From Roseateles oligotrophus (GTDB lineage: Bacteria; Pseudomonadota; Gammaproteobacteria; Burkholderiales; Burkholderiaceae_C), in contig NZ_JAJIRN010000007.1 of assembly GCF_025717515.1 (NCBI RefSeq), positions 124,001 through 188,000 of the forward strand: DNA of 64,000 nucleotides, given 5' to 3'. The notes under the pieces were generated by a model, which ran no database searches, was not told where the DNA came from, and was given only the letters and a program-made list of their open reading frames with translations. The translations under genes and the position numbers were made by a program. This document shows positions 7,442-32,943 of this stretch, piece by piece; position 1 is the first letter of the stretch, and the number at the start of each line of letters is the position of its first letter.

Positions 7442-7880
7442 TCAAAACGGTCATTGAACCGAGCATCAGCTACGCGGCGCGCGTTCGAATGCATTGCCCA
7501 GGGGTTCACCATGGCAGTTCGGTCGCGCAGGTCAATCGCAATAGTGCGCGACAGGTGACCGTCACCCCCGTAGTCGAACTTCGGCTTTGGGCACAAAGCT
7601 GACTTCCAAATTCATCGGGTAATCAGGTGGGCGGGGCGTTCTGGTTCGAAATCTTGGGCACCTCGGCGCAACTGCGCTACCCGCCCGATGCTGAGGGTCA
7701 GGCTTTGCCTATAGACTTGAGACCCCCGAGACCGCTCTCTGCAAGCTGGGTATCGAACATCAATCCGAAGACCTTGCGACTCTTGAATCCCATTCACTTT
7801 CGATTGTCGGCCGAGCTATGCTGGCAGACACTACGCTCGGGCCGCTGCGCCCGCTCATGCACCTCAACCAGGAGAACCCA
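7442..7880. other. Intergenic region of 439 bp without a supported gene
   Basis: No reading frame here has a ribosome-binding site or recognisable protein. One feature stands out: a perfect 13-bp palindrome, GGTGAC-C-GTCACC, at 7554-7566. The last part must contain the promoter of the carbonic anhydrase gene, but I cannot identify convincing -35/-10 boxes. Confidence 0.6.
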
Positions 7881-8606
7881 ATGACCGCAAATTCGAAAAT
7901 GCTTGCTTTGCTTATTACCCTTGGCCTCGGTGCGGCTCAGGCGTCCGATGATCATGGCGGCCCGGTGCATCCGAAACCCTACACGCCCGGAGTCACGCTG
8001 AGCAAGGCCGTACAGGCCTCGATCACACCGGAACAATCGATCAAAATACTGCAAGCTGGCAATCAACGCTTCGCCGCTGGCCGCTCGCTGAAATACGACC
8101 ACAAGCGCCATGTCCGTCAAACCGCGCTGGGCCAATTTCCTTTCGCCAGCGTGGTCGCTTGCATCGACTCGCGCTCGGCGCCCGAGCAGGTCTTCGACAC
8201 CGGCGTTGGCGATATCTTCACTGCCCGCGTGGCCGGTTCCACCGTCAATGAAGACATGGTTGGCAGCCTGGAATATGCCGCCAAGGTCGGCGGTTCACGC
8301 GCCATCGTCGTGCTCGGTCATAGCAATTGCGGCGCTATCAAGGGGGCTTGCGACGATGTGCAGATGGGCAATCTGACCGGTTTGCTGGCCAAGCTGAAGC
8401 CGGCCGTCGAAGCTACATCAACATCGGGCGAGCGCAATTCCAAAAACTACAGCTTTGTGAACGACGTGAACGAGATGAACGTCAAACTCACCGTCGAGAA
8501 AATCCGCGCCACCAGCCCAATCCTGAAGGAGATGGAAGCCGCCGGGCAGATCAAGATCGTTGGCGCGGTGTACGACACCGCTACGGGCAAGGTGCACTGG
8601 CAATAA
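7881..8606 (+). CDS. Exported beta-class carbonic anhydrase
   Basis: Zinc enzyme that interconverts CO2 and bicarbonate. The zinc site is complete: Cys94 and Asp96-Arg98 in ACIDSRSA, His147 and Cys150 in LGHSNCGA. The N-terminus (MLALLITLGLGAAQAS) is a signal peptide, so the enzyme is predicted to be periplasmic, less common than cytoplasmic beta-CAs. The start at 7881 is supported by AGGAG about 8 bases upstream; 241 residues. It stands alone between two operons. Periplasmic CAs help retain CO2 or buffer the periplasm; a link to the decarboxylating gallate pathway would be speculative. Confidence 0.92.
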   Translation: MTANSKMLALLITLGLGAAQASDDHGGPVHPKPYTPGVTLSKAVQASITPEQSIKILQAGNQRFAAGRSLKYDHKRHVRQTALGQFPFASVVACIDSRSAPEQVFDTGVGDIFTARVAGSTVNEDMVGSLEYAAKVGGSRAIVVLGHSNCGAIKGACDDVQMGNLTGLLAKLKPAVEATSTSGERNSKNYSFVNDVNEMNVKLTVEKIRATSPILKEMEAAGQIKIVGAVYDTATGKVHWQ

Positions 8607-17248: not shown

Positions 17249-18132
17249 TGGCGAACTCCTTTGCGGTCACGCTCCAGCCAGAGCTGCAAGGACACGCCTA
17301 TCAGCATCACCGCGAACAAGACCTGCGAGGCGGCGGTGGCGTAGCCCAGCGACAGCTGCATAAAGGCCTGTTCGTAGATGAATTGCACGATAGGCCGGGT
17401 GCTGTTGTTCGGCCCGCCATTGGTCATCAGCATGATTTGCGGAAAGACCTGGAACTCTCGTATCACCTCGATCACCGCAACCAGCACGATGGTACGGCTC
17501 AGGGACGGCAGGGTGATGCGGGTCAGCGTGCGCCAGCGGCTGGTGTTGTCCAGGGCGGCGGCCTCGTAGATATCACTCGGAATCTGCTGCAGCGCCGACA
17601 GGAACAGAATCATCGGCAGGCCGATGATCCACCACACCGTCACCAGGGCGATGGTCGGCAGCGCCAAGGCGTCGCTGCTCAGCAGCGCCATATCGGGCAG
17701 GCCCAGCTTGTTCAGAAATTGCGAGACCAGGCCACGCTCGGGCATCAGCGCTAACTTCCAGACCAGCGTGATTATGGTGACGGAGAACACCGAGGCGCAA
17801 AAAAAGGTGCCGCGCAAGAGCGCGCCGAGACGGCCGGGCCGGTTCAGCGCCAAGGCCAAGGCCAAGGACACGATGACGAAGATCGGCGTGCTGATCAAGA
17901 CGAACTTGACGGTGTTCCACATCACCTGGTGGAAGACCTCGTCGCCGGCGAGCTGAACATAATTGTCCAAACCGACGTAGAAGCTGTCGTCGGACAAAAG
18001 GTCATGGTCATGCAGGCTGATCGCCATGCCCTTGGCCAGCGGCCACAGCACCAGCAGCGCATAGATGGCCACAAAGGGCAGCACGAACAAGCCGTTGGAA
18101 AGGCGCGAACGGCGCAGGCCGACGGCGCTCAT
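17245..18132 (-). CDS. ABC sugar permease, MalF/AraP type
   Basis: Inner-membrane permease of 295 residues with six helices; EAA loop YEAAALDNTSRWRTLTRITL. Pairs with the AraQ-like permease. I chose the ATG at 18132 (MSAVGLRRSRLSNGLF) because it overlaps the ATPase stop by 4 bp; the longer in-frame extension to 18471 falls inside the ATPase gene. Substrate specificity for arabino-oligosaccharides comes from context. Confidence 0.93.
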   Translation of the reverse strand: MSAVGLRRSRLSNGLFVLPFVAIYALLVLWPLAKGMAISLHDHDLLSDDSFYVGLDNYVQLAGDEVFHQVMWNTVKFVLISTPIFVIVSLALALALNRPGRLGALLRGTFFCASVFSVTIITLVWKLALMPERGLVSQFLNKLGLPDMALLSSDALALPTIALVTVWWIIGLPMILFLSALQQIPSDIYEAAALDNTSRWRTLTRITLPSLSRTIVLVAVIEVIREFQVFPQIMLMTNGGPNNSTRPIVQFIYEQAFMQLSLGYATAASQVLFAVMLIGVSLQLWLERDRKGVRQ

Positions 18133-22074: not shown

Positions 22075-23189
22075 TGGCTGCGCAGCCGAGCGCCAGCCCG
22101 ACCATCAGCCGGCGCGAGTTTGGGCAGATGCCTGACGGCCGCCCGGTGCATGAGTACACGCTGGACAACGGCGCCGGCCTGGTGCTCAGCGCCATCACCT
22201 ATGGCGGCATCGTCACCGCGCTGTGGCTGCCGGACGGCGCCGGGCGGCGCGCCAATGTGGTGCTGGGTTTTGACAATCTGCGCGACTATCTGGAGCGCAA
22301 TCCGCATTTCGGCGTGATCGTCGGCCGCTTCGGCAACCGCATTGCGCGGGGCCAATTCACGCTCGACGGCCACAGCCATCAACTGGATCTGAATGATGGG
22401 CCTAACTGCCTGCATGGCGGTGCGAGCGGCTTCGGCACGCGGCTATGGGAGGCCGAGATCGAGCCGGCTGGCCTTGCCGGCCATGGTCCGGCGCTGCTGC
22501 TGCGCTACACCAGCCCGGACGGCGAGGGCGGTTTCCCCGGGACGATGGCGGTCAAGGTGCGCTACAGCCTGACGGCCGAGCAGACCTGGCGCATCGACTA
22601 CGAGGCAAGCTGCGACAAGCCGACCGTCGTCAATCTGACCCACCATGATTACTTCAATCTGGCCGGGCGCGGCTCGGCGATGAGTCAGCGCTTGATGATT
22701 GCCGCCAGCCGTTACACCGAGGTGGATGGGGGGCGCATTCCGACCGGCATCGCGTCGGTCGAGGGCACGCCCTTCGATTTCCGCCTGCCCTCCGAGATCG
22801 AGCCACGCCTGCGTCTGCCCCACCCGCAACTGCTCTCGGCTCGGGGCTTTGATCACAACTGGCTGCTTGATCACCCCTTCGATGGGGGCCTGCATTTGGC
22901 CGCCAGCCTGGAAGACCCGCTATCCGGCCGCAAGATGGAAATCCACAGCAGCGAGCCGGCGCTGCAGTTCTATTCCGGCAACTTCCTCGACGCCAGCTTG
23001 GTCGGCTCGGGCGGCGAGGCCTATAGACAGGGCGACGGCCTTTGTCTGGAAACTCAGCACAGCCCGGATTCTCCGAATCACGCCTCGACCGACCCGGACT
23101 GGCCGTCCACCTTGCTGCGGCTCGGCGAGGTCTATCGCAGTTGCACCGAGCATCGCTTTGGTGGTGGCAACATTGGCATTCCCGGCTGA
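22071..23189 (+). CDS. galM: Aldose 1-epimerase (galactose mutarotase)
   Basis: Interconverts alpha and beta anomers of aldoses, feeding the adjacent aldose 1-dehydrogenase. 372 residues with GVIVGRFGNRIARGQF and the catalytic-type His in VNLTHHDYFNLAG, plus the C-terminal Glu in CLETQHSPDSPNH, all standard for GalM. The ATG at 22071 overlaps the dehydrogenase stop by 4 bp. No signal peptide, so cytoplasmic. Confidence 0.94.
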   Translation: MMAAQPSASPTISRREFGQMPDGRPVHEYTLDNGAGLVLSAITYGGIVTALWLPDGAGRRANVVLGFDNLRDYLERNPHFGVIVGRFGNRIARGQFTLDGHSHQLDLNDGPNCLHGGASGFGTRLWEAEIEPAGLAGHGPALLLRYTSPDGEGGFPGTMAVKVRYSLTAEQTWRIDYEASCDKPTVVNLTHHDYFNLAGRGSAMSQRLMIAASRYTEVDGGRIPTGIASVEGTPFDFRLPSEIEPRLRLPHPQLLSARGFDHNWLLDHPFDGGLHLAASLEDPLSGRKMEIHSSEPALQFYSGNFLDASLVGSGGEAYRQGDGLCLETQHSPDSPNHASTDPDWPSTLLRLGEVYRSCTEHRFGGGNIGIPG

Positions 23190-23221
23190 CGGTTTGGGCC
23201 CGAAACAAGAAGGTATTCACA

Positions 23222-23707
23222 ATGACCGTACCCGTTCATGAATTGTCGATGACCGTGCTGATGACCCCCGACATGGCCAATTTCTCCGGCAATGTGCATG
23301 GCGGCACGGTGTTGAAGTTTCTGGATCAGGTCGCCTATGCCTGCGCGAGCCGCTACGCCGGCTGCTATGTGGTGACGCTGTCGGTCGATCAGGTGATGTT
23401 CCGCCAACCGATTCATGTCGGCGAGCTGGTGACATTTCTCGCCTCGGTCAACTACACCGGCTCTTCGTCGATGGAGGTCGGCATCAAGGTGCTGGCCGAG
23501 AACATCCGCAGCCAGCAGACGCGGCATGCGAATAGCTGCTTCTTCACCATGGTGGCGGTTGACGACGAGCGCAAGCCGGTGCCGGTGCGCGCGCTGCAGG
23601 TCGTGACGCCCGACCAGCAGCGGCGCCATGCCGCGGCCCTGGTGCGCAGGCAATTGCGCCAGGAGTTCAACGCCCGTTTCGAGGCCTTGCGCGCGCCCCC
23701 GGCCTGA
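23222..23707 (+). CDS. YciA-like acyl-CoA thioesterase
   Basis: Single hotdog-domain protein of 161 residues that hydrolyses acyl-CoA. The catalytic loop is recognisable in MANFSGNVHGGTVLKFLDQ, followed by the long helix VAYACASRYAG and a core strand VTLSVDQVMFRQPI. It starts 32 bp after galM and so may be read through from the aldose dehydrogenase promoter, although its role in sugar metabolism is unclear. The adjacent GcvP-like unit, separated by a large palindrome, could also be the functional partner. Confidence 0.88.
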   Translation: MTVPVHELSMTVLMTPDMANFSGNVHGGTVLKFLDQVAYACASRYAGCYVVTLSVDQVMFRQPIHVGELVTFLASVNYTGSSSMEVGIKVLAENIRSQQTRHANSCFFTMVAVDDERKPVPVRALQVVTPDQQRRHAAALVRRQLRQEFNARFEALRAPPA

Positions 23708-23896: not shown

Positions 23897-25291
23897 ATGA
23901 CAAGCAAGCCCCAGGTCTACCCCTATATTCCGAACTCCGTGCCGGCCGTCAAGGCCGCGATGCTGGCCGCCACCGGCGCCGCCTCGGTCGAAGAGTTCTA
24001 TGCCGATGTGCCGACCGAGTTGCGCATGGACCGGCCGCTGAATTTGCCGGCGCCGCTGCTGTCCGAGGCGCGCTTGAAGCGCCATGTGCAGGCCATCCTG
24101 GCGCGCAACCGGCATTGCGGCGAGGTCTTGAGCTTTTTGGGCGGCGGCTGCTACCAGCACCATGTGCCGGCCATCTGCGACGAGATCAACGGGCGCAGCG
24201 AATTCCTGACCGCCTATGCCGGCGAGCCCTATGACGACCATGGCCGCTTCCAGGCGCTGTGGGAATATTGCTCGATGATGGGCGAGCTGCTGAACCTGGA
24301 CGTGGTCAGCGTGCCGACCTATGACGGCATGCAGGCCGCAGCCACCGCCTGCTGCATGGCGGCGCGCCACAGCGGGCGCCGCCTTGTGCTGCTGGCCGCC
24401 AACACCAGCGCCGACAAGCGCTCGCATATCAAGACCTATGGCCGCAGCGAGATCGACTTCGTCGAGGTCGCGTTTGATCCCATCACCGGCCTCTTGGACC
24501 GGGGCGACCTGCGCGCCAAGTTGAGCCAAGAGGTGGCGGCCCTTTATCTGGATGTACCGAATTACTTCGGCGGTATCGACGAGGGGCAGGCGATTGCCGG
24601 CTTGGTCAAGTCGGCCGGCGCGATGCTGATCGTCGGCGTTGATCCGCTCTCGCTTGGGGTGCTGACTCCCCCTGGAGACTATGGCGCGGACATCGTCTGC
24701 GGCGACATCCAGTCCCTGGGCATGCATATGAGCTATGGCGGCGGCCATGGCGGCTTCATCGCCAGCCGCGACGAGGAGGCCTTGCTGATGCAATACCCGT
24801 CGCGCCTGTTCGGCATCGCGCCGACCTCGGTGCCGGGTCAATACGGCTTTGGCGATGTCGCCTACCAGCGCACCTCTTTCGACAAGCGCGAGCAGGGCAA
24901 CGAGTTTGTCGGCACGGCCGCGGCCCTGTGGGGCATCACCGCCGGGGTCTTCCTGGCCAGCCAGGGCCCGCAAGGCATGGTGGAGTTGGGCGAAGGCATC
25001 ATGAAGCGCGTCGCCTATGCGCGCCAGCGCTTAAGCACCTTGCCCGGCCTGCGGCTGGCCCATCCCGGCGCTGTGCATTTCAAGGAGTTCGTGCTCGACT
25101 TTTCGGCCACCGGCAAGACGGTGGCCGAGGTGAACGCGGGCTTGCGCGAGCGTGCCATCTTCGGCGGCCATGATTTGTCCGAGGCCTTCCCCGCGCTCGG
25201 CCAGTCCGCGCTTTATGCCTTCACCGAGGTCCACAGTCAGGCCGATATCGATGCCTTGGTGGACGCCCTTCGCGAGGTCCTCGCTTCATGA
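23897..25291 (+). CDS. gcvPA: Glycine decarboxylase subunit 1-like protein (divergent GcvPA)
   Basis: PLP-enzyme subunit of 464 residues related to the N-terminal half of the P-protein. Start at 23897 gives the family N-terminus YPYIPNSV; an ATG at 23852 is an alternative. The fold is recognisable (SFLGGGCYQHHVPAICDEI, VPTYDGMQAAATA), but the motif that normally reads YTPYQ..SQG is YAGEPYDDHG here, and the following FEYQT is WEYCS. GcvPA in its normal role decarboxylates glycine with GcvPB and passes aminomethyl to H-protein; no gcvT or gcvH is in the window. Betaproteobacteria normally use a single-chain GcvP, so this two-subunit paralogue may act on another amino acid. It overlaps the next gene by 4 bp. 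Confidence 0.82.
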   Translation: MTSKPQVYPYIPNSVPAVKAAMLAATGAASVEEFYADVPTELRMDRPLNLPAPLLSEARLKRHVQAILARNRHCGEVLSFLGGGCYQHHVPAICDEINGRSEFLTAYAGEPYDDHGRFQALWEYCSMMGELLNLDVVSVPTYDGMQAAATACCMAARHSGRRLVLLAANTSADKRSHIKTYGRSEIDFVEVAFDPITGLLDRGDLRAKLSQEVAALYLDVPNYFGGIDEGQAIAGLVKSAGAMLIVGVDPLSLGVLTPPGDYGADIVCGDIQSLGMHMSYGGGHGGFIASRDEEALLMQYPSRLFGIAPTSVPGQYGFGDVAYQRTSFDKREQGNEFVGTAAALWGITAGVFLASQGPQGMVELGEGIMKRVAYARQRLSTLPGLRLAHPGAVHFKEFVLDFSATGKTVAEVNAGLRERAIFGGHDLSEAFPALGQSALYAFTEVHSQADIDALVDALREVLAS

Positions 25292-26922
25292 ATCCCGTCA
25301 ATATGGAAAACATCTCCGCCCACCGCTTCACCGACGGCAAACCCAATCTGCGCCGCTACCAGCAAGCCCGCTGGGACGAGCCGGTGATCTTCGAACTCAG
25401 CCAGCCGGGTGAGCGCGCTTTGCTGACGCCCGAGCTGGAGCCGGCCATCGAAGCCGCCGCGCATGATGTGCTGTTCACGCTGCCGCCCGGCATGCGCCGC
25501 AAGCTGGCGCCCGCGCTGCCGGAGTTGAGCCAGAACCGCGTGCTGCGCCACTATCTGCGCTTGTCGCAGGAGACCTTGGGCGCCGACTTCAATGTCGACG
25601 TCGGCCAGGGCACTTGCACGATGAAGTACAACCCCAAGGTCAACGAACATCTGGCCCGCGATGCGCGCATGAGCGAGCTGCATCCGCTGCAAGACGAGAG
25701 CACGGTGCAGGGCATCTTGCATGTGATGCATGAGATGGAAGGCGTGTTGAAGGAGGTCTCCGGCATGGACGCGGTGAGCCTGCAGCCCCGCTCGGGCTCG
25801 CAGGCGATCTATGCCAATCTGGCGATGATCCGGGCCTGGTTCGAAGCGCGCGGCGAGGCTGGCGAGCGGGACGAGATCATCACGACCATCTTCAGTCACC
25901 CGTCCGACGCGGCCTGCGCCAAGGTCTTGGGCTACAAGGTCATCACGCTCTACCCGGATGCAGAGGGCTACCCCGATCTGGCAGCGATGCAGGCGGCGGT
26001 CGGCCCGCGCACCGCCGCGCTGATCATCACCAACCCGGAAGACACCGGCATCTTCAACGCCAAGATCCGCGAGTTCGTGGCCGCCGCCCATGGAGTCGGC
26101 GCGCTGGCTTGCTATGACCAGGCCAATGCAAACGGCCTTTTAGGCATCACCCGGGCGCGCGAGGCCGGTTTCGATCTCAGCCATTTCAATCTGCACAAGA
26201 CTTTTTCAACCCCGCACGCCTGCGGCGGCCCTGCGGTCGGGGCCTGCGCGGTGACGGCGGCGCTGGCGCCGTTTCTCCCCCGACCCGTGATCGTCAAGGA
26301 GCCGGACGGTCGCTACCGCATAGAACAGGGCGGCGAGCGCTCGATCGGCAAGGTGGCGGCCTTTATGGGCACGGCCAGCATTGTCTTGCGCGCCTATGCC
26401 TGGGTGATGAATCTGGGCGCGGCGGGCCTGCGCGAGGTGGCCGAGATCGCGGTCTTGAACAACAACTACATGATGGCGCAATTGCTGAAGATTCGCGGCC
26501 TGTCGGCGCCTTATGCGCCGGGCAAGCGGCGTATCGAGCAGGTGCGCTACAGCTGGGCCGAGCTCTGCGCCGAGACCGGCGTGCACTCGGGTGATATCGG
26601 CCTGCGTGCCGCCGACTACGGCGTCCATTACTGGACCAGCCACCACCCCTATGTGGTGCCCGAGCCGGCCACCATCGAGCCGACCGAGTCTTACTCGCGT
26701 GCCGATCTGGATGAGTTCGCGCAGATCATGAGCCGCGTCGCCGACGAGGCCAGAGCCGACCCCGAGATGCTGCGCAGCGCCCCGCATAACTGCCCGACAA
26801 GGCGCATTGACGAATCCTGCCTGGATGACCCCAAGCGCTGGGCCATCACCTGGCGCGGCTGGCAGCGCAAGCTGGCCGAGCATGGCGTGGCCACGCCCAC
26901 CGCGATGGACCGGGCATTTTGA
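25288..26922 (+). CDS. gcvPB: Glycine decarboxylase subunit 2-like protein (divergent GcvPB)
   Basis: Catalytic PLP subunit of 544 residues. Lys304 in HFNLHKTFSTPH is the PLP lysine and CTMKYNPKVNE near residue 110 is family-typical. Several normally fixed motifs are altered: HGGGGPG after the lysine is HACGGPA; the SAHGTNPAS segment reads FSHPSDAACA; QPAAGA reads QPRSGSQ. The enzyme therefore probably keeps PLP chemistry with a changed substrate pocket (inference). Start at 25288 overlaps gcvPA (ATGA). The downstream AcoX-like gene begins one base after its stop, so the three are one unit. Confidence 0.82.
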   Translation: MNPVNMENISAHRFTDGKPNLRRYQQARWDEPVIFELSQPGERALLTPELEPAIEAAAHDVLFTLPPGMRRKLAPALPELSQNRVLRHYLRLSQETLGADFNVDVGQGTCTMKYNPKVNEHLARDARMSELHPLQDESTVQGILHVMHEMEGVLKEVSGMDAVSLQPRSGSQAIYANLAMIRAWFEARGEAGERDEIITTIFSHPSDAACAKVLGYKVITLYPDAEGYPDLAAMQAAVGPRTAALIITNPEDTGIFNAKIREFVAAAHGVGALACYDQANANGLLGITRAREAGFDLSHFNLHKTFSTPHACGGPAVGACAVTAALAPFLPRPVIVKEPDGRYRIEQGGERSIGKVAAFMGTASIVLRAYAWVMNLGAAGLREVAEIAVLNNNYMMAQLLKIRGLSAPYAPGKRRIEQVRYSWAELCAETGVHSGDIGLRAADYGVHYWTSHHPYVVPEPATIEPTESYSRADLDEFAQIMSRVADEARADPEMLRSAPHNCPTRRIDESCLDDPKRWAITWRGWQRKLAEHGVATPTAMDRAF

Positions 26923-26923
26923 G

Positions 26924-28042
26924 ATGAACCCTCGCGTCGGCCTGATCATCAACCCGCTGGCGGGCGCCGGCGGCAAGCTGGGTTTGCACGGCAGCGATGG
27001 GCTGCACAGCGCAGCGGCCTCGGCCTGGTCCGGCGAGCGGGCCGCGCTGGCGCTGGCCGGCTTTGGCGCGGGCTTGGCGGTCGACTGGGTCAGCGGGCCG
27101 GGGGTGATGGGCGCGGATTTGTTGCGGGCCTTGGGAGCCGAACCGCAAGTGCTGAGTCTGGCGTCTGCCGGCTCCAGCAGCGCGGCGGACACGCGCGAGC
27201 TGGTGGCTCGGATGCAGCAAGTCGGCCTTGATCTGCTCTTGTTTGCCGGCGGTGACGGCACGGCGCGGGATGTGCTGGACGCGCTGGCCACCGACGCCGC
27301 GCTGCCGGTGCTGGGCATTCCGGCCGGGGTCAAAATGCAGTCGGCCTGTTTTGGCGTCAGTCCGGCGGCGGCCGGTCGGCTGGCGATGGGATTTCTGGCC
27401 ACGCAGCGGCGCTGCACCGAGCCGCGTGAGGTGATGGATCTGGATGAGGGCGCGCTGCGCCAGGGTCGGGTCTTGCCTCGCTTGTACGGCTACCTGGCCA
27501 CGCCGACCGACCCGCGCCTGTTGCAGGGACGCAAGACGCGCAGCGCGCCGGCCGACGCCGAGGCCGCAGCGGCCTTGGCGGCCAGCTTGTTGCCGCAACT
27601 GCAGCAGGGCTTGCATCTGATCGGGCCGGGCAGCACGACCTGGGCCTTGAAGTCGGCGCTGGGCCTGGCCGGTAGTTTGATTGGTGTCGATGTCGTCATT
27701 GACGGCCGCCTCTGGTTGCGCGATGCCAATGAGGCGCAGCTGTTGGAATTGCTGGCCGCCATGCCGGGGCGGGCGCGGCTGTGGCTGACGGCGATAGGTG
27801 GCCAGGGCCATGTGATCGGGCGCGGCAATGCGCCGCTCAGCGCCAGAGTCTTGCGCCAACTCGGCCCAGCGGCGTTGACGGTGTTGATGACGCCGACCAA
27901 GCTGCAAGCGATGGCGGGTCAAGGCGGCGGGGTGCTGCGCGTGGACAGCGGCTGCGCCGAGGTGGACGCCTTGTTCAGCGGCCCGGTGCGGGTGCTGACC
28001 GGGCCGCGTGATCGGGCGATCTTGAGATTGGTGGCAGAGTAG
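26924..28042 (+). CDS. AcoX/NAD-kinase-like protein
   Basis: Protein of 372 residues in the NAD-kinase/AcoX-like group. The N-terminal VGLIINPLAGAGGKLGL and FAGGDGTARDVLDAL (GGDGT) motifs and GIPAGVKMQSACFGVSP are characteristic. AcoX proteins accompany acetoin and other 2-oxo-acid dehydrogenase complexes in Burkholderiales, but their reaction is unsettled; a kinase acting on NAD or another small molecule is likely from the fold. It starts one base after the GcvPB-like stop, which argues for a functional link with the divergent decarboxylase. The in-frame extension to 26807 lies inside gcvPB. Confidence 0.8.
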   Translation: MNPRVGLIINPLAGAGGKLGLHGSDGLHSAAASAWSGERAALALAGFGAGLAVDWVSGPGVMGADLLRALGAEPQVLSLASAGSSSAADTRELVARMQQVGLDLLLFAGGDGTARDVLDALATDAALPVLGIPAGVKMQSACFGVSPAAAGRLAMGFLATQRRCTEPREVMDLDEGALRQGRVLPRLYGYLATPTDPRLLQGRKTRSAPADAEAAAALAASLLPQLQQGLHLIGPGSTTWALKSALGLAGSLIGVDVVIDGRLWLRDANEAQLLELLAAMPGRARLWLTAIGGQGHVIGRGNAPLSARVLRQLGPAALTVLMTPTKLQAMAGQGGGVLRVDSGCAEVDALFSGPVRVLTGPRDRAILRLVAE

Positions 28043-28094: not shown

Positions 28095-28889
28095 ATGCAA
28101 GCAACAACACAAATGAGCGCCGGTGAACTGCGCGGCAAGGTGGCCTTGATCACCGGCGCCGGCTCCGGCATTGGCCGCGCCACCGCGCTGCTGTTCGCCG
28201 CGGAAGGCGCCCGCGTGGTGGTCTGCGATTTGAACGCCGAGGGCGCGGCGGCGACCGTGGGCGAGATCGAGGCGGCCGGCGGCGAGGCCTTGGCTGTGCA
28301 GGCGAATGTGGCGCTGGCCGCCGATTGCCAGCGCAGCGTGCAAGAGACGCTGGCCGCTTATGGCCGGCTCGATGTGCTGTTCAATAACGCCGGCATTACG
28401 CGGCGTGCGAATGTGGTGGACACCAGCGAGGCCGATTGGGACGCGGTGATGGCCGTCAACGTCAAGTCGATTTTCCTGATGAGCAAATACGCGGTGCCGG
28501 TGATGGTGAGCCAAGGCGGCGGCAGCATCATCAATTCGGGCTCCGGTTGGGGCCTGGTCGGCGGCAAGGACGCTGTTTCTTATTGCGCCTCCAAGGGGGC
28601 GGTGGTGAACATGACGCGGGCGATGGCGGTTGACCATGGGCCGCAGCAGATCCGCGTCAACAGCGTTTGCCCCGGCGACACCGACACCGCGATGCTGCGC
28701 AACGAGGCACAGCAACTCGGCCTGGCCGACATGGCGCTGGTCGAAGCCGGCAATGCAAGGCCGCTGATGCGGGTCGGGCAGGCGCGCGAGATTGCGCAGG
28801 TGGTGCTGTTTCTGGCCAGTGACCGCTCATCCTTTGTCACCGGCTCGGCCTATGTGGTGGACGGTGGCGGGCTGGCGGGTTCGGCCTGA
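28095..28889 (+). CDS. SDR-family oxidoreductase
   Basis: NAD(P)-dependent short-chain dehydrogenase of 264 residues: GAGSGIG cofactor loop (21-27), NNAG, catalytic Ser150, Tyr163 and Lys167. ATG at 28095 has GGAG 9 bases upstream and is preferred to the ones at 28080 and 28086. It lies 52 bp after the AcoX-like gene and 120 bp before the glycoside operon, so it probably ends the GcvP-like unit. Substrate unknown; similar SDRs act on sugars, acetoin or sugar acids. Confidence 0.85.
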   Translation: MQATTQMSAGELRGKVALITGAGSGIGRATALLFAAEGARVVVCDLNAEGAAATVGEIEAAGGEALAVQANVALAADCQRSVQETLAAYGRLDVLFNNAGITRRANVVDTSEADWDAVMAVNVKSIFLMSKYAVPVMVSQGGGSIINSGSGWGLVGGKDAVSYCASKGAVVNMTRAMAVDHGPQQIRVNSVCPGDTDTAMLRNEAQQLGLADMALVEAGNARPLMRVGQAREIAQVVLFLASDRSSFVTGSAYVVDGGGLAGSA

Positions 28890-29009: not shown

Positions 29010-31052
29010 ATGCTCAATTGGGGAATCATCGGCGCCGGCAACATCTCGGGCGCTTTCGCACAGGGTTTGACGCAGACCGACAGTGGCGCGCTGGTGGCGG
29101 TGGCCAGCCGTGACGCCGTCAAGGCCCAGGCCTTTGCCGACAAACATGGCTCGCTGGCCTGTCCGCCACAGGCGCATGGCAGCTACGAGGCCTTACTGGC
29201 CGACCCGGCCGTGCAGGCGGTCTATATCGGCCTGCCGCACACCGAACATCTGCACTGGACGGTGCTGGCGTTGCGGGCCGGCAAGCATGTGCTGTGCGAG
29301 AAGCCGCTGGGCCTGAACCATGCCGAGGCGATGATCGCCTTCGACGAGGCCGAGCGGGCCGGCCGCCTGCTGATGGAAGCCTTTATGTACCGCTGCCTGC
29401 CGCAAACGGCCAAGCTGGTGGAACTGCTGCGCGCCGGCACCATCGGCGAGGTGCGCCACATCCAGGCCTCGTTTTGCTACAGCTCGACGCCGCGTGTCGG
29501 CTCGCGCACCTGGGAGGCCTCGCTGGCCGGCGGCGCGATTCTGGATGTCGGCTGCTATCCCGTCTCGATGGCGCGTTTGATTGCCGGCGTGGCGCAGGGC
29601 CAGCCCTTCGCCGAGCCGCTCAAGCTGACGGCGATGGGCAAGCTGCACGAGGGCGCCAGCGGTCCGGTCGATGAATGGGCCACCGCCACCCTGCTGTTCC
29701 CCGGCGACATCGTCGCGCAGCTGAGCACGGCGGTGCGCTTCGAGCAGGAGGAGTCGCTGCGCATTGGCGGCACGCAAGGTGCGCTGGTGGTGCCCAATCC
29801 CTGGTACGGTGCGGGCGCCGAAGCGGGCGAAAGCCGCATCGAGCTCTATGTGGACGAGGCGCTGGCGCAAAGCTGGACCATCCCAACCGATCGTGGCCTC
29901 TATGCCTACGAGGCCGATGCGTTTGCGCAGGCGGTGAAGGCGGCCGCTATTCCCCATCCGGCCATGAACTCTGCGGATTCGCTAGCCAATCTGGCCGTGA
30001 TGGACCGCTGGCGTCAGGCCATCGGCCTGTCCTATCCCAAAGAAGCCGAAGCCGCCATGCAGGGCCGCCAAACGCTGGCCGGCCTGCGGCTCGCCCGCCG
30101 CGCCGATGCGCTGATGAGTTATGGCCAGGTGCCGGGGCTTGAGGGTAAGCCGGTGTCGCGCCTGATCATGGGTGTCGACAACCAGGAAAATCTCAGCCAT
30201 GCGGCGGCGCTGTTCGATGACTACATCGAGCGCGGCGGCAATGCTTTCGACACCGCCTGGGTCTATGACTTCGAGGGTGGCCACAGCGAGGCGATTCTGG
30301 GTCAGTGGCTGCGAGCGCGCGGCATCCGCGACGAGATCGTCTTGATCGCCAAGGGCGCCCACACGCCTAACTGCACACCCGAAGGCATGCGCAGCGAGTT
30401 GGCCGAGAGCCTGGAGCGCCTGCAGACCGATCATGCCGACCTCTACATCCTGCACCGCGACAACCCCGAGGTGCCGGTGGGCGAGTTTGTCGAGGCGCTG
30501 AACGAGCAGCGCCGCCTCGGCCGCTTCAAGGCCTTTGGCGGCTCTAACTGGTCATTGGAGCGGGTGGCGCAGGCCAATGCCTACGCGGCGGCCAAGGGTC
30601 TGCAGGGTTTCTCTTTGCTCAATAACCAGCTCAGCCTTGCGCGCATGCAGGCGCCGATCTGGCGCGGTTGCGTGTCGGCCGGCGACCCGGCCTCGCGCCA
30701 GCGGCTGGCCGAGCAGGGGCTGGCCTTGTTCGCCTGGTCCTCGCAGGCGCGTGGCTTCTTCACCGACCGCGCCGGCCCGGATCGCCGTGAGGACGAAGAG
30801 CTGGTGCGTTGCTGGTATAGCGCCGCCAACTTCGAGCGTCGCGCCCGCGCCCAGAAATTGGCCGCCGAGAAAGGTGTGCAGGCGATCAATATCGCGCTGG
30901 CCTGGGTGCTGGCGCAGGCCTTCCCGGCCTTCAGCCTGATCGGTCCGCGCAGCATTGCCGAGACTGCCAGTTCGATGCGGGCCTTGAGCGTGCAGTTGAC
31001 GGCCGAAGAAATGGCCTGGTTAGACCTCGCCGAGCAAGGATCACCGGCATGA
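29010..31052 (+). CDS. Gfo/Idh/MocA dehydrogenase fused to aldo/keto reductase
   Basis: Single 680-residue chain joining two oxidoreductases. Residues 1-340 form a Gfo/Idh/MocA domain: GIIGAGN (5-11) for NAD(P), catalytic Lys in CEKPLG (98), and a DVGCYPV segment. Residues about 370-680 form an aldo/keto reductase with the full tetrad Asp414, Tyr419, Lys448 and His482; the usual N-terminal strand of AKRs is modified to VSRLIMGVDNQ. The linker AMQGRQTLAGLRLARRADAL joins them without a stop. One domain could oxidise and the other reduce a sugar with local cofactor recycling (inference). The ATG at 29010 follows an AT-rich region and lacks a strong ribosome site; the next gene overlaps by 4 bp. 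Confidence 0.88.
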   Translation: MLNWGIIGAGNISGAFAQGLTQTDSGALVAVASRDAVKAQAFADKHGSLACPPQAHGSYEALLADPAVQAVYIGLPHTEHLHWTVLALRAGKHVLCEKPLGLNHAEAMIAFDEAERAGRLLMEAFMYRCLPQTAKLVELLRAGTIGEVRHIQASFCYSSTPRVGSRTWEASLAGGAILDVGCYPVSMARLIAGVAQGQPFAEPLKLTAMGKLHEGASGPVDEWATATLLFPGDIVAQLSTAVRFEQEESLRIGGTQGALVVPNPWYGAGAEAGESRIELYVDEALAQSWTIPTDRGLYAYEADAFAQAVKAAAIPHPAMNSADSLANLAVMDRWRQAIGLSYPKEAEAAMQGRQTLAGLRLARRADALMSYGQVPGLEGKPVSRLIMGVDNQENLSHAAALFDDYIERGGNAFDTAWVYDFEGGHSEAILGQWLRARGIRDEIVLIAKGAHTPNCTPEGMRSELAESLERLQTDHADLYILHRDNPEVPVGEFVEALNEQRRLGRFKAFGGSNWSLERVAQANAYAAAKGLQGFSLLNNQLSLARMQAPIWRGCVSAGDPASRQRLAEQGLALFAWSSQARGFFTDRAGPDRREDEELVRCWYSAANFERRARAQKLAAEKGVQAINIALAWVLAQAFPAFSLIGPRSIAETASSMRALSVQLTAEEMAWLDLAEQGSPA

Positions 31053-32170
31053 TGGCGGCATCTCAGATCAAGCCGACGGCTGTCGCCATCATCGGCGCCG
31101 GCGACATCTTCCCGGCCTATGCCAAGGGCCTGGCCCAGTTCGGCAATTTGCGTCTGATCGGCGTGGCCGACGCTAAGCCCGAGGCCGCGCAGAGTCGCGC
31201 CGCCGAGTTCGATCTGCCTTTGATGAGCCTGGATCAGTTGCTCGGCAGCGAGGCCGAAATCATCATCAACCTGACCCCGCCGCTTGCTCACCGGGCGGTT
31301 GGCGAGGCGGTTCTGAAGGCCGGCAAGCATCTCTATACCGAGAAACCGCTGGCAGGCAGTTTTGCCGACGGAGCCGCCTTGATGGAGAAGGCTGCTGCGC
31401 TTGGCCTGCGCATCGGCTGCGCGCCCGACACATTCCTGGGTGGTGCGGGCCAGGCCGCGCGCGCGCTGGTCGACGCAAACGGCATTGGCCGCATCGTCGC
31501 CGGCCAAGCCACGATGATGGAGCGCGGCCCCGATGACTGGCATCCCAACCCCGAGTTTTTCTACCGCCCTGGCGCCGGGCCGCTGATGGACATGGGCGTC
31601 TATTACCTGACGCAGCTGGTGCAACTGCTGGGCCCGATCACGCTCGTCAGCGGCTTGGCCCACACGAGTTGGCCGCTGCGGCAGATTCCGCGTGGCCCGC
31701 GCCAGGGCGAGCACATCAAGGTCGAAACGCCGACCCATCTGGTCGCCGGCCTGACGTTTGAGCAGGGCGCCTTCATCACGCTGAGCACCAGCTTCGATGT
31801 CTGGAAGCACAAGAGCAGCCATATCGAGTTGTTCGGCGAGCTGGGCAGCCTGGTGTTGCCGGACCCGAACCAGTTCGGCGGTGAGCTTGAGCTGTGTGTG
31901 GCCGATGGCGACTGGGCGGCGCAAGCGCCGCTGGCCTTCACCGGCCGGCACCGGGGCCTGGGCGTGGCCGAGATGGCCGATGCCTTGCGCAGCGGCCGGC
32001 CGCACCGCGCGAGCGGCGAGATGGCGTTGCATGTGCTTGAGGCGATGGACGCGATTCTGCGGTCGGCCGAGCAGCAGGCTCCGCTGGCGCTGCAGACCCG
32101 CTGCGCAAGACCCGACCCCGTCCCGGCCGGTTTTGCCGCCAGCCTTCAGATGCAGGAGCAATGCGCATGA
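31049..32170 (+). CDS. Gfo/Idh/MocA-family oxidoreductase
   Basis: NAD(P)-dependent sugar oxidoreductase of 373 residues. Rossmann motif VAIIGAGDIFPAYAKGL at the N-terminus, active-site Lys in LYTEKPLAG, and a C-terminal substrate-binding sheet with GAGPLMDMGVYYLTQL. Enzymes of this family oxidise or reduce a sugar hydroxyl, often at C3. It is translationally coupled to the fusion gene before it and the TIM-barrel gene after it (both ATGA overlaps), the pairing seen in 3-keto-glycoside pathways. Substrate not known. Confidence 0.87.
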   Translation: MMAASQIKPTAVAIIGAGDIFPAYAKGLAQFGNLRLIGVADAKPEAAQSRAAEFDLPLMSLDQLLGSEAEIIINLTPPLAHRAVGEAVLKAGKHLYTEKPLAGSFADGAALMEKAAALGLRIGCAPDTFLGGAGQAARALVDANGIGRIVAGQATMMERGPDDWHPNPEFFYRPGAGPLMDMGVYYLTQLVQLLGPITLVSGLAHTSWPLRQIPRGPRQGEHIKVETPTHLVAGLTFEQGAFITLSTSFDVWKHKSSHIELFGELGSLVLPDPNQFGGELELCVADGDWAAQAPLAFTGRHRGLGVAEMADALRSGRPHRASGEMALHVLEAMDAILRSAEQQAPLALQTRCARPDPVPAGFAASLQMQEQCA

Positions 32171-32943
32171 CTTCGAATCAAACCGGGGTTCGCATCGCCC
32201 TGCAGCTCTACACCGTGCGCGCCGTCGGCGATCTGGTGGCCCGACTGGAACTCGCGAAGCAGGTCGGCTATGCCTGGGTCGAGACCGAAGCCTTGCATGG
32301 CTTGAGCCGCAGCGACTTTGTTGCCGCGCTGCAGGCCTCGGGCCTGAGGCTGGCTTCCATGCATGTGGAAATGAGCGATCTGGCCGAGCGACTGGACGAG
32401 ATCGTCGCCTCGCTCAAGGCCTGTGCCTGCACGCAGCTGGTGATGCCCTGGCTGGACGAGACCGAGCGGCCGCAGGACAGCGCCGGCTGGTTGGCCTTGG
32501 CAGCCACCTTGCAAGCCCATGCGCTGGTATTGCAGGGCCAGGGCATCACGCTGGCCTATCACAACCATGCCTTCGAGTTCGAGCGGCTTGGGCAAGACGG
32601 CCGCACGGTCTTGGAGACCTTGCTGGAGGCCGCGCCGAGCTTGCGCTGGCAAGCCGATGTGGCCTGGGTAGCCCGGGCGGGCGAGGCGCCGATGGCATGG
32701 CTGGAACGCTACGCCTTGCGCCTGCAGTCGGTGCATGTGAAGGACCTGGCCAAGCCTGGAGCCGAGTTGGGCGAGATCGAACAAGGCTGGGCCACGTTGG
32801 GCGAGGGGCGTCTGGATTGGCCGGCCTGGCTGCCTTGGCTGAGCCAGCGCGTGAACACCTTCATCGTCGAGCATGACCAGCCCAGCCAGCCGGCGCGCAC
32901 CGCAGCGCAGGGCCTGCGCTATCTGGCCGGTCTTTTGGCCTAA
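32167..32943 (+). CDS. Sugar phosphate isomerase/epimerase-like TIM barrel
   Basis: Xylose-isomerase-like TIM barrel of 258 residues. Starts with IALQLYTVR as in this family; metal ligands are likely His in YHNHAFEF, Asp in QADVAWVAR, His in SVHVKD and Glu in VEHDQP. ATG at 32167 is chosen: it overlaps the preceding stop (ATGA) and has AGGAG 8 bases upstream, whereas an ATG at 32161 would be only 2 bases from it. Relatives catalyse epimerisation, isomerisation or the elimination/hydration of 3-keto-glycosides. Placement beside Gfo/Idh/MocA genes supports the last role (inference). Confidence 0.83.
   Translation: MTSNQTGVRIALQLYTVRAVGDLVARLELAKQVGYAWVETEALHGLSRSDFVAALQASGLRLASMHVEMSDLAERLDEIVASLKACACTQLVMPWLDETERPQDSAGWLALAATLQAHALVLQGQGITLAYHNHAFEFERLGQDGRTVLETLLEAAPSLRWQADVAWVARAGEAPMAWLERYALRLQSVHVKDLAKPGAELGEIEQGWATLGEGRLDWPAWLPWLSQRVNTFIVEHDQPSQPARTAAQGLRYLAGLLA

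Follow-up and report, generated by a model that had tools for sequence, protein, structure and literature searches.

What does a two-subunit relative of glycine decarboxylase do when no other genes of the glycine cleavage system stand beside it? This question is raised by a 64,000-nucleotide stretch of Roseateles oligotrophus (positions 124,001 to 188,000 of contig NZ_JAJIRN010000007.1; hereafter the window), in which genes for a GcvPA-like subunit (PA), a GcvPB-like, pyridoxal 5'-phosphate (PLP)-dependent subunit (PB) and an AcoX-like protein follow one another on the forward strand (Table 1). PA and PB overlap by 4 base pairs, and one base separates PB from the AcoX-like gene. An initial annotation had proposed a paralogous decarboxylase for another amino acid, and our coordinates and family assignments confirm the contiguous trio on which it was built. 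We give an even chance to the reading that this module encodes a GcvP-fold PLP enzyme that is independent of lipoate and responds to glycine. It would operate outside the glycine cleavage system and probably act on glycine, with the AcoX-like protein and a short-chain dehydrogenase/reductase (SDR) as partners. We commit to the first half of this proposal, glycine responsiveness and lipoate independence, and leave the fate of the aminomethyl group between two options.

PA (462.5, cut-off 364) and PB (566.8, cut-off 441) pass the NCBIfam models for GcvPA and GcvPB, respectively. The third protein passes the Pfam models NAD_kinase (54.7, cut-off 25.5), NAD_kinase_C (35.3, cut-off 23.7) and DAGK_cat, and reaches no NCBIfam cut-off; the label AcoX is taken over from the initial annotation, and orthology to the AcoX of acetoin operons is presumptive. 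The PLP lysine motif NLHKTFS is intact in PB, and the motif changes listed earlier can be read in both subunits (YAGEPYDDHG in PA, FSHPSDAACA and HACGGPA in PB). Neither gcvT nor gcvH was found among the 10 neighboring window proteins scanned, again as first described. A canonical system is present on another contig of the same genome (C45), where gcvT, gcvH and a one-chain GcvP (981 amino acids) lie side by side, and the window pair is therefore a second, different P-protein-like enzyme. That betaproteobacteria normally have a one-chain GcvP, as the initial annotation stated, holds for the family of the window genome, where this is the usual form, but is too strong for the order: in an even draw of 399 genomes, 46 contain two-subunit-type PB matches at 435-461 bits, which are presumably canonical, the motifs having been read for about ten of them.

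The gene trio is not a chance arrangement, since PB orthologs with 78-99% identity exist and the gene order recurs across phyla. Such orthologs occur in 6 of 98 other relatives (one a 91-residue fragment at a contig end), and the AcoX-like gene and close PB relatives are found in the same 7 of 99 relatives, the window genome included. In the 399-genome draw, for which at most four AcoX and three PB candidates were scored per genome, module PB and AcoX occur in the same two genomes, with PB scores of 895-911 bits versus at most 461 bits for all others. A locus from another family of the order (L010, G071:C4:232089-236687; 78% PB identity) keeps the PA-PB-AcoX order, and there the start of an SDR-like frame follows AcoX, as judged by eye from the translations. 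Scanning species genomes with a five-sequence alignment (A2) returned 357 related stretches, canonical ones possibly among them; the best 80 (51-93% identity) were retained. They derive from Betaproteobacteria, Gammaproteobacteria, Bacillota, Chloroflexota, Bipolaricaulota, Aminicenantes, Bathyarchaeota, Hodarchaeota and further groups, many from metagenome assemblies. A distant branch (about 42-45% identity) is located on plasmids of Rhodococcus, Sphingomonas, Gemmobacter, Roseicitreum, Antarctobacter, Paracoccus aminophilus and Natronosalvus, the AcoX gene of the last lying about 54 kilobases away from PA-PB. When 198 genomes from the order of one module-bearing genome (G133) were searched at E 1e-150, only G133 itself matched. 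The module is patchy but widely scattered across bacterial phyla and archaea. A phage collection contained 23 records with GcvPB-like matches, identity being 37-39% in the five listed.

We calculated a quick tree from 113 PB rows (81 module, 6 plasmid branch and 26 canonical). It places all 87 module and plasmid rows on a single branch outside the canonical P-protein clade (length 2.09, Shimodaira-Hasegawa-like approximate likelihood ratio test 100; no bootstrap, with long branches flagged among the canonical rows), and the module rows alone form one group against the plasmid branch with weak support (58). The separate clade goes along with its own motif set, (D/E)xGQGTCTMKYNP, SHPxxA, YDQAN, PHGCGGP, RxEQxRYS and HYWxSHHPxxVPEP, compared with PLGSCTMK, SAHGTNPA, DGAN, PHGGGGPG, HE and HAPTxxFP in canonical proteins. 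The proposed paralogy to the genome's canonical P-protein is borne out by clade and motifs, and the opposite outcome (placement inside canonical GcvP, with no other glycine cleavage system in the genome) was not obtained. Lys304, Asp277, His204 and His310 of the PLP site are kept in 81 of 81 module PB rows, and all 81 carry Gln278, Pro205, Thr109, Glu417, Arg420 and His452 in place of the canonical residues. A predicted structure of PB alone (mean predicted local distance difference test score, pLDDT, 68) was set aside. The outline given by the initial annotation is right: judged from sequence, the pair is a PLP-competent, distinct relative of GcvP whose partners are an AcoX-like protein and an SDR.

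Among the closest known systems is two-subunit GcvPA/GcvPB (PDB IDs 1wyt, 1wyu and 1wyv), with which the module shares the two-subunit build and the PLP lysine motif (PB against 1wyt_B, 296.9 bits; PA against 1wyt_A, 213.8 bits). It differs from these enzymes in its separate clade and in the replacement of many residues on the substrate and H-protein sides; it also occurs without detected lipoylation genes, and no H-, T- or L-protein genes accompany it in the window. One-chain GcvP (that of the window genome, 6i33 and 4lgl) belongs to the same families and has the same PLP site, but is a single polypeptide, in the window genome encoded next to gcvT and gcvH.

Does the module still recognize H-protein? 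In human GLDC, Tyr-161 and Tyr-164 are listed as active-site positions, and Gln-366, Ile-372, Arg-373 and Lys-376 as lying at a modeled H-protein interface (PMC7259800). These four interface residues are invariant in all 28 canonical rows that we compared (three repeat one gene, leaving 25 distinct). In the module, Gln-366 (Tyr, Phe, Asn, Trp or Thr) and Ile-372 (Ala, Asp, Gly, Ser or Glu) are changed in 76 of 76 rows, Arg-373 is mostly Lys or Ser and kept in about 4 of 76, and Lys-376 is changed in 50 (Asn, Gln and others). Four neighboring canonical invariants outside this set, Glu-369, Gln-370, Ser-379 and Asn-380, are replaced by Thr/Cys, Ser, Glu/Asp and Phe/Tyr/Trp, respectively. On the substrate side, Tyr-164 is Gly in 74 of 74 aligned module rows and Tyr-161 is kept in all of them. 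The altered H-protein side claimed by the initial annotation is supported, and the modeled interface is changed but not wholly erased.

Five of 48 module-bearing genomes have no GcvH (G118, G128, G133, G136 and G139), and the match in a sixth (G112) reaches only 22.6 bits with a cut-off of 22.2. We inspected these six more closely, together with four others and G000. Each of the six has one P-protein match, at the place of the module PA. GcvT was not found in G112, G136 and G139, is partial in G133 (99.6 bits), a 26.6-bit scrap in G128 and full in G118 (327 bits). LipA scores over the cut-off in six of these 11 genomes but not in G112, G133, G136, G139 or the comparison genome G111, and ligases of the LplA/LipB type are missing from G112, G133, G136 and G139 (present in the other seven). 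The enzyme therefore occurs in four lineages in which lipoylation left no clear trace.

In part of the loci, regulatory elements point to glycine. We scanned 63 of the 80 loci and the window with Rfam (L036-L043, L045-L051, L054 and L057, 17 in all, were left out; the sequence of several scanned loci starts only near or within PA) and found glycine riboswitches directly upstream of PA in five (L099, L105, L106, L113 and L115), all from Bacillota and falling into two tree groups. They lie 250-412 bases from the PA start, as set by our own open reading frame (ORF) picker. The L106 element belongs to G136 and cannot be attributed to a canonical neighbor, because that genome has no detected glycine cleavage part. 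In many proteobacterial loci a divergent LysR gene precedes PA. All seven such neighbors tested match GcvA best, six of them over the cut-off; GcvA responds to glycine in Escherichia coli. The three plasmid-locus LysR genes that were tested fall elsewhere, and in the window the gene before PA is a thioesterase. Riboswitches and GcvA-type regulators together suggest glycine as the signal and probably as the substrate. At L105, five glycine aptamer matches stand in a row before PA (7689-8292), above the usual tandem pair, and a second set of four is found in the same Syntrophomonas locus (17454-17884) upstream of an ORF that by eye resembles a pyridine nucleotide reductase.

We next consider the partners. 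At the 58 loci with enough flanking sequence, PA is near PB in 58, AcoX in 50 and the SDR in 25 ("near" meaning within 2.6, 3.5 and 4.5 kilobases, respectively; part of the query genes were themselves taken from these loci). Over all loci, AcoX was found in 58 of 81 with clusters from our ORF picker and in 61 of 80 by tblastn. The SDR, which the initial annotation had named as a possible partner, is thus a frequent one. Module SDRs form an orthologous group; a second kind beside some modules (32-38% identity to the window SDR) was left out of the 25. The thioesterase suggested as another partner fared less well: genes upstream of PA vary among loci, with LysR in many, and we set it aside on these gene lists, no search having been aimed at thioesterases. 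All 30 AcoX-like proteins compared contain the GGDGT motif. A fold search with the AcoX-like model (pLDDT 86; rows spanning mainly residues 1-292) returned diacylglycerol kinases first, with unrelated periplasmic binding proteins close behind (6hni, Z 11.4), and by sequence the match to solved members of the NAD kinase/diacylglycerol kinase/sphingosine kinase superfamily is only marginal (best E 0.033). Two AcoX homologs without PA or PB nearby overlap other genes, one for the elongation factor P hydroxylase EpmC in Pseudoalteromonas (L130:5034-6726) and one for a HisC/CobD-like PLP protein, below both cut-offs, in Peptoclostridium (L121:8620-10696).

Several results weigh against a lipoate-independent glycine enzyme. 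A GcvH match exists in 43 of the 48 genomes, where use of an H-protein is accordingly possible. Of the modeled interface residues, Lys-376 persists in 26 of the 76 rows of the module, and Arg-368 and Arg-374 are conserved in nearly all. No AcoX was found nearby in 8 of the 58 loci and no SDR in 33, so that AcoX is a regular partner but not, as the initial annotation had asked, always adjacent. No glycine riboswitch reaches the gathering threshold in 58 of the 63 scanned loci or in the window. The absences of lipoylation genes may be gaps, since the lipoate-free genomes are metagenome assemblies of unstated completeness, although chance gaps in the same functions across four assemblies are unlikely. 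The GcvH matches and the retained Lys-376, together with the NCBIfam cut-offs passed by both subunits, would also suit a P-protein that has diverged but continues to supply the ordinary glycine cleavage system via the housekeeping H-protein, as would L099 and L115, where a canonical set (GcvH, PA, PB and lipoyl ligase) is encoded just upstream. We consider this quite unlikely in view of the other interface residues lost, the canonical P-protein also present in the window genome, and the four genomes without detected H-protein (one weak match) or lipoylation enzymes.

Neighboring genes supply a further counterargument, which concerns the substrate. Five gammaproteobacterial loci add an ABC transporter with a binding protein. 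That of L056, in whose cluster the proteins of the other four loci fall, is nearest to the Lys/Arg/Orn/His family; compared with the lysine/arginine/ornithine-binding protein (LAO), it keeps the alpha-group-binding Arg and Asp, and Asp11 is replaced by Glu. An acetylpolyamine amidohydrolase is encoded in four Polaromonas-type loci (L052 tested), and both findings suit a basic amino acid better. Along with the ArgE/DapE deacylase and amine oxidase of plasmid loci and the changed substrate-side residues, they favor a decarboxylase of like build, also independent of lipoate, whose substrate is a basic or hydroxylated amino acid and not glycine, the glycine control in some Bacillota then being a local recruitment. 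This account would have to accommodate the glycine riboswitches, which occur in two distinct groups of Bacillota and in one case in a genome without a detected glycine cleavage part, and the GcvA-type regulators, and we judge it possible but somewhat unlikely. We favor glycine, weighing cis-regulation above neighbors that vary between lineages, and regard a basic amino acid as the chief alternative. Of the original proposal, the distinct paralog stands, and the five riboswitches and 7 of 7 GcvA-type regulators point to glycine and not to another amino acid, with the Lys/Arg/Orn-type binding protein as a lead the other way.

If glycine is indeed the substrate, PB would bind it as an external aldimine and then decarboxylate it, and the aminomethyl group would not be passed to lipoyl-H-protein. 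The carbanion might be protonated, giving methylamine and CO2, with the amine exported or oxidized. Alternatively, it might combine with a small acceptor of the carbonyl or acyl type, producing an amino ketone or alcohol as a substrate for the SDR and the AcoX protein. A specific version of the latter, which we regard as unlikely, is a third route for glycine: an H-protein-free GcvP homolog would decarboxylate glycine and attach the carbanion to a small acyl or carbonyl acceptor, the SDR would interconvert amino ketone and alcohol, and AcoX would phosphorylate the product. Sphingoid base metabolism uses a trio of PLP synthase, SDR reductase and kinase of the diacylglycerol kinase fold, and the third route, if true, would be its small-molecule counterpart. 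The L-threonine-phosphate route of cobalamin synthesis, with a kinase and the PLP decarboxylase CobD, shares the logic of pairing these activities, but its protein families differ from those of the module. The association with an SDR and a kinase-family protein, and genes for an acyl-CoA synthetase or a CoA-transferase in the vicinity of some copies, would also fit a different PLP reaction on a glycine-related compound (aldol-type cleavage, condensation or transamination), type I PLP folds being known to host many reactions; the best solved-structure sequence matches are glycine dehydrogenases, however, and we hold this to be highly unlikely.

Table 1. Module genes and neighboring features in the window
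Feature	Position	Strand	Remarks
PA, GcvPA-like subunit	23897..25291	+	464 residues in frame, stop outside, ATG start; YTPYQ..SQG replaced by Y-AG-EPYDDHG
PB, GcvPB-like PLP subunit	25288..26922	+	544 amino acids; NLHKTFS with Lys304 at 26188-26208
AcoX-like protein, NAD-kinase/diacylglycerol-kinase superfamily	26924..28042	+	372 amino acids, GGDGT motif
Classical SDR	28095..28889	+	Ortholog of the module-adjoining SDR in other phyla; 45-67% identical, close relatives excepted
4HBT thioesterase	23141..23707	+	Neighbor; probably no part of the module
Gfo/Idh-aldo/keto reductase fusion	29010-31052	+	Neighbor, common to six close relatives only
Gfo/Idh oxidoreductase	31049-32170	+	Neighbor, common to six close relatives only
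260-amino acid ORF	32161-32943	+	Neighbor, common to six close relatives only

The fusion gene downstream of the SDR is a single ORF of 680 amino acids that combines a Gfo/Idh/MocA oxidoreductase with an aldo/keto reductase, and ORFs of its cluster (678-680 amino acids) were found near the module in six close relatives. We set aside the downstream sugar and ABC genes as partners, their clusters being common to these six relatives only. In two Anaerolineae loci (L072:7212-11479 and L090:2-3855), PA and PB are separated by a class III CoA-transferase gene, the nearest named model for L090 being succinate-glutarate CoA-transferase (below cut-off). An MttB-family methyltransferase gene precedes PA in one Anaerolineaceae locus (L060:142-1617) and does not reach the cut-off of the model for the trimethylamine enzyme. 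Close to PA-PB, three Rhodobacterales plasmid loci contain sugar ABC genes as well as DHDPS-family and SDR genes. Molybdenum/tungsten cofactor riboswitches were located near the module in L083 (12310-12426) and L087 (11823-11944), the latter at the start of an ORF (cluster 18) that presumably resembles aldehyde ferredoxin oxidoreductase. A glycyl radical enzyme encoded after AcoX in L066 provided no clue, as it is an ordinary pyruvate formate-lyase that is encoded, together with its activase, downstream of a ZTP riboswitch.

Among the open-licence papers listed by literature searches, no title or abstract opening gave an account of the module clade or of an AcoX-GcvP pair, which does not show its absence from print. 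Relative to the initial annotation, the breadth of the module, its occurrence without detected lipoylation and its apparent control by glycine riboswitches in some Bacillota are new. Annotation pipelines label such proteins, which pass the NCBIfam cut-offs, "aminomethyl-transferring glycine dehydrogenase," as seen for plasmid copies; genomes without lipoate are thereby credited with part of an unworkable glycine cleavage system. If our proposal is correct, Bacteria and Archaea would possess a lipoate-free use of glycine, and the AcoX family would gain a testable partner and role. An H-protein-free glycine decarboxylase would also be useful in synthetic one-carbon pathways. Should the third route prove true, it would stand beside the lipoate-dependent cleavage system and glycine reductase, and would provide a first function for AcoX.

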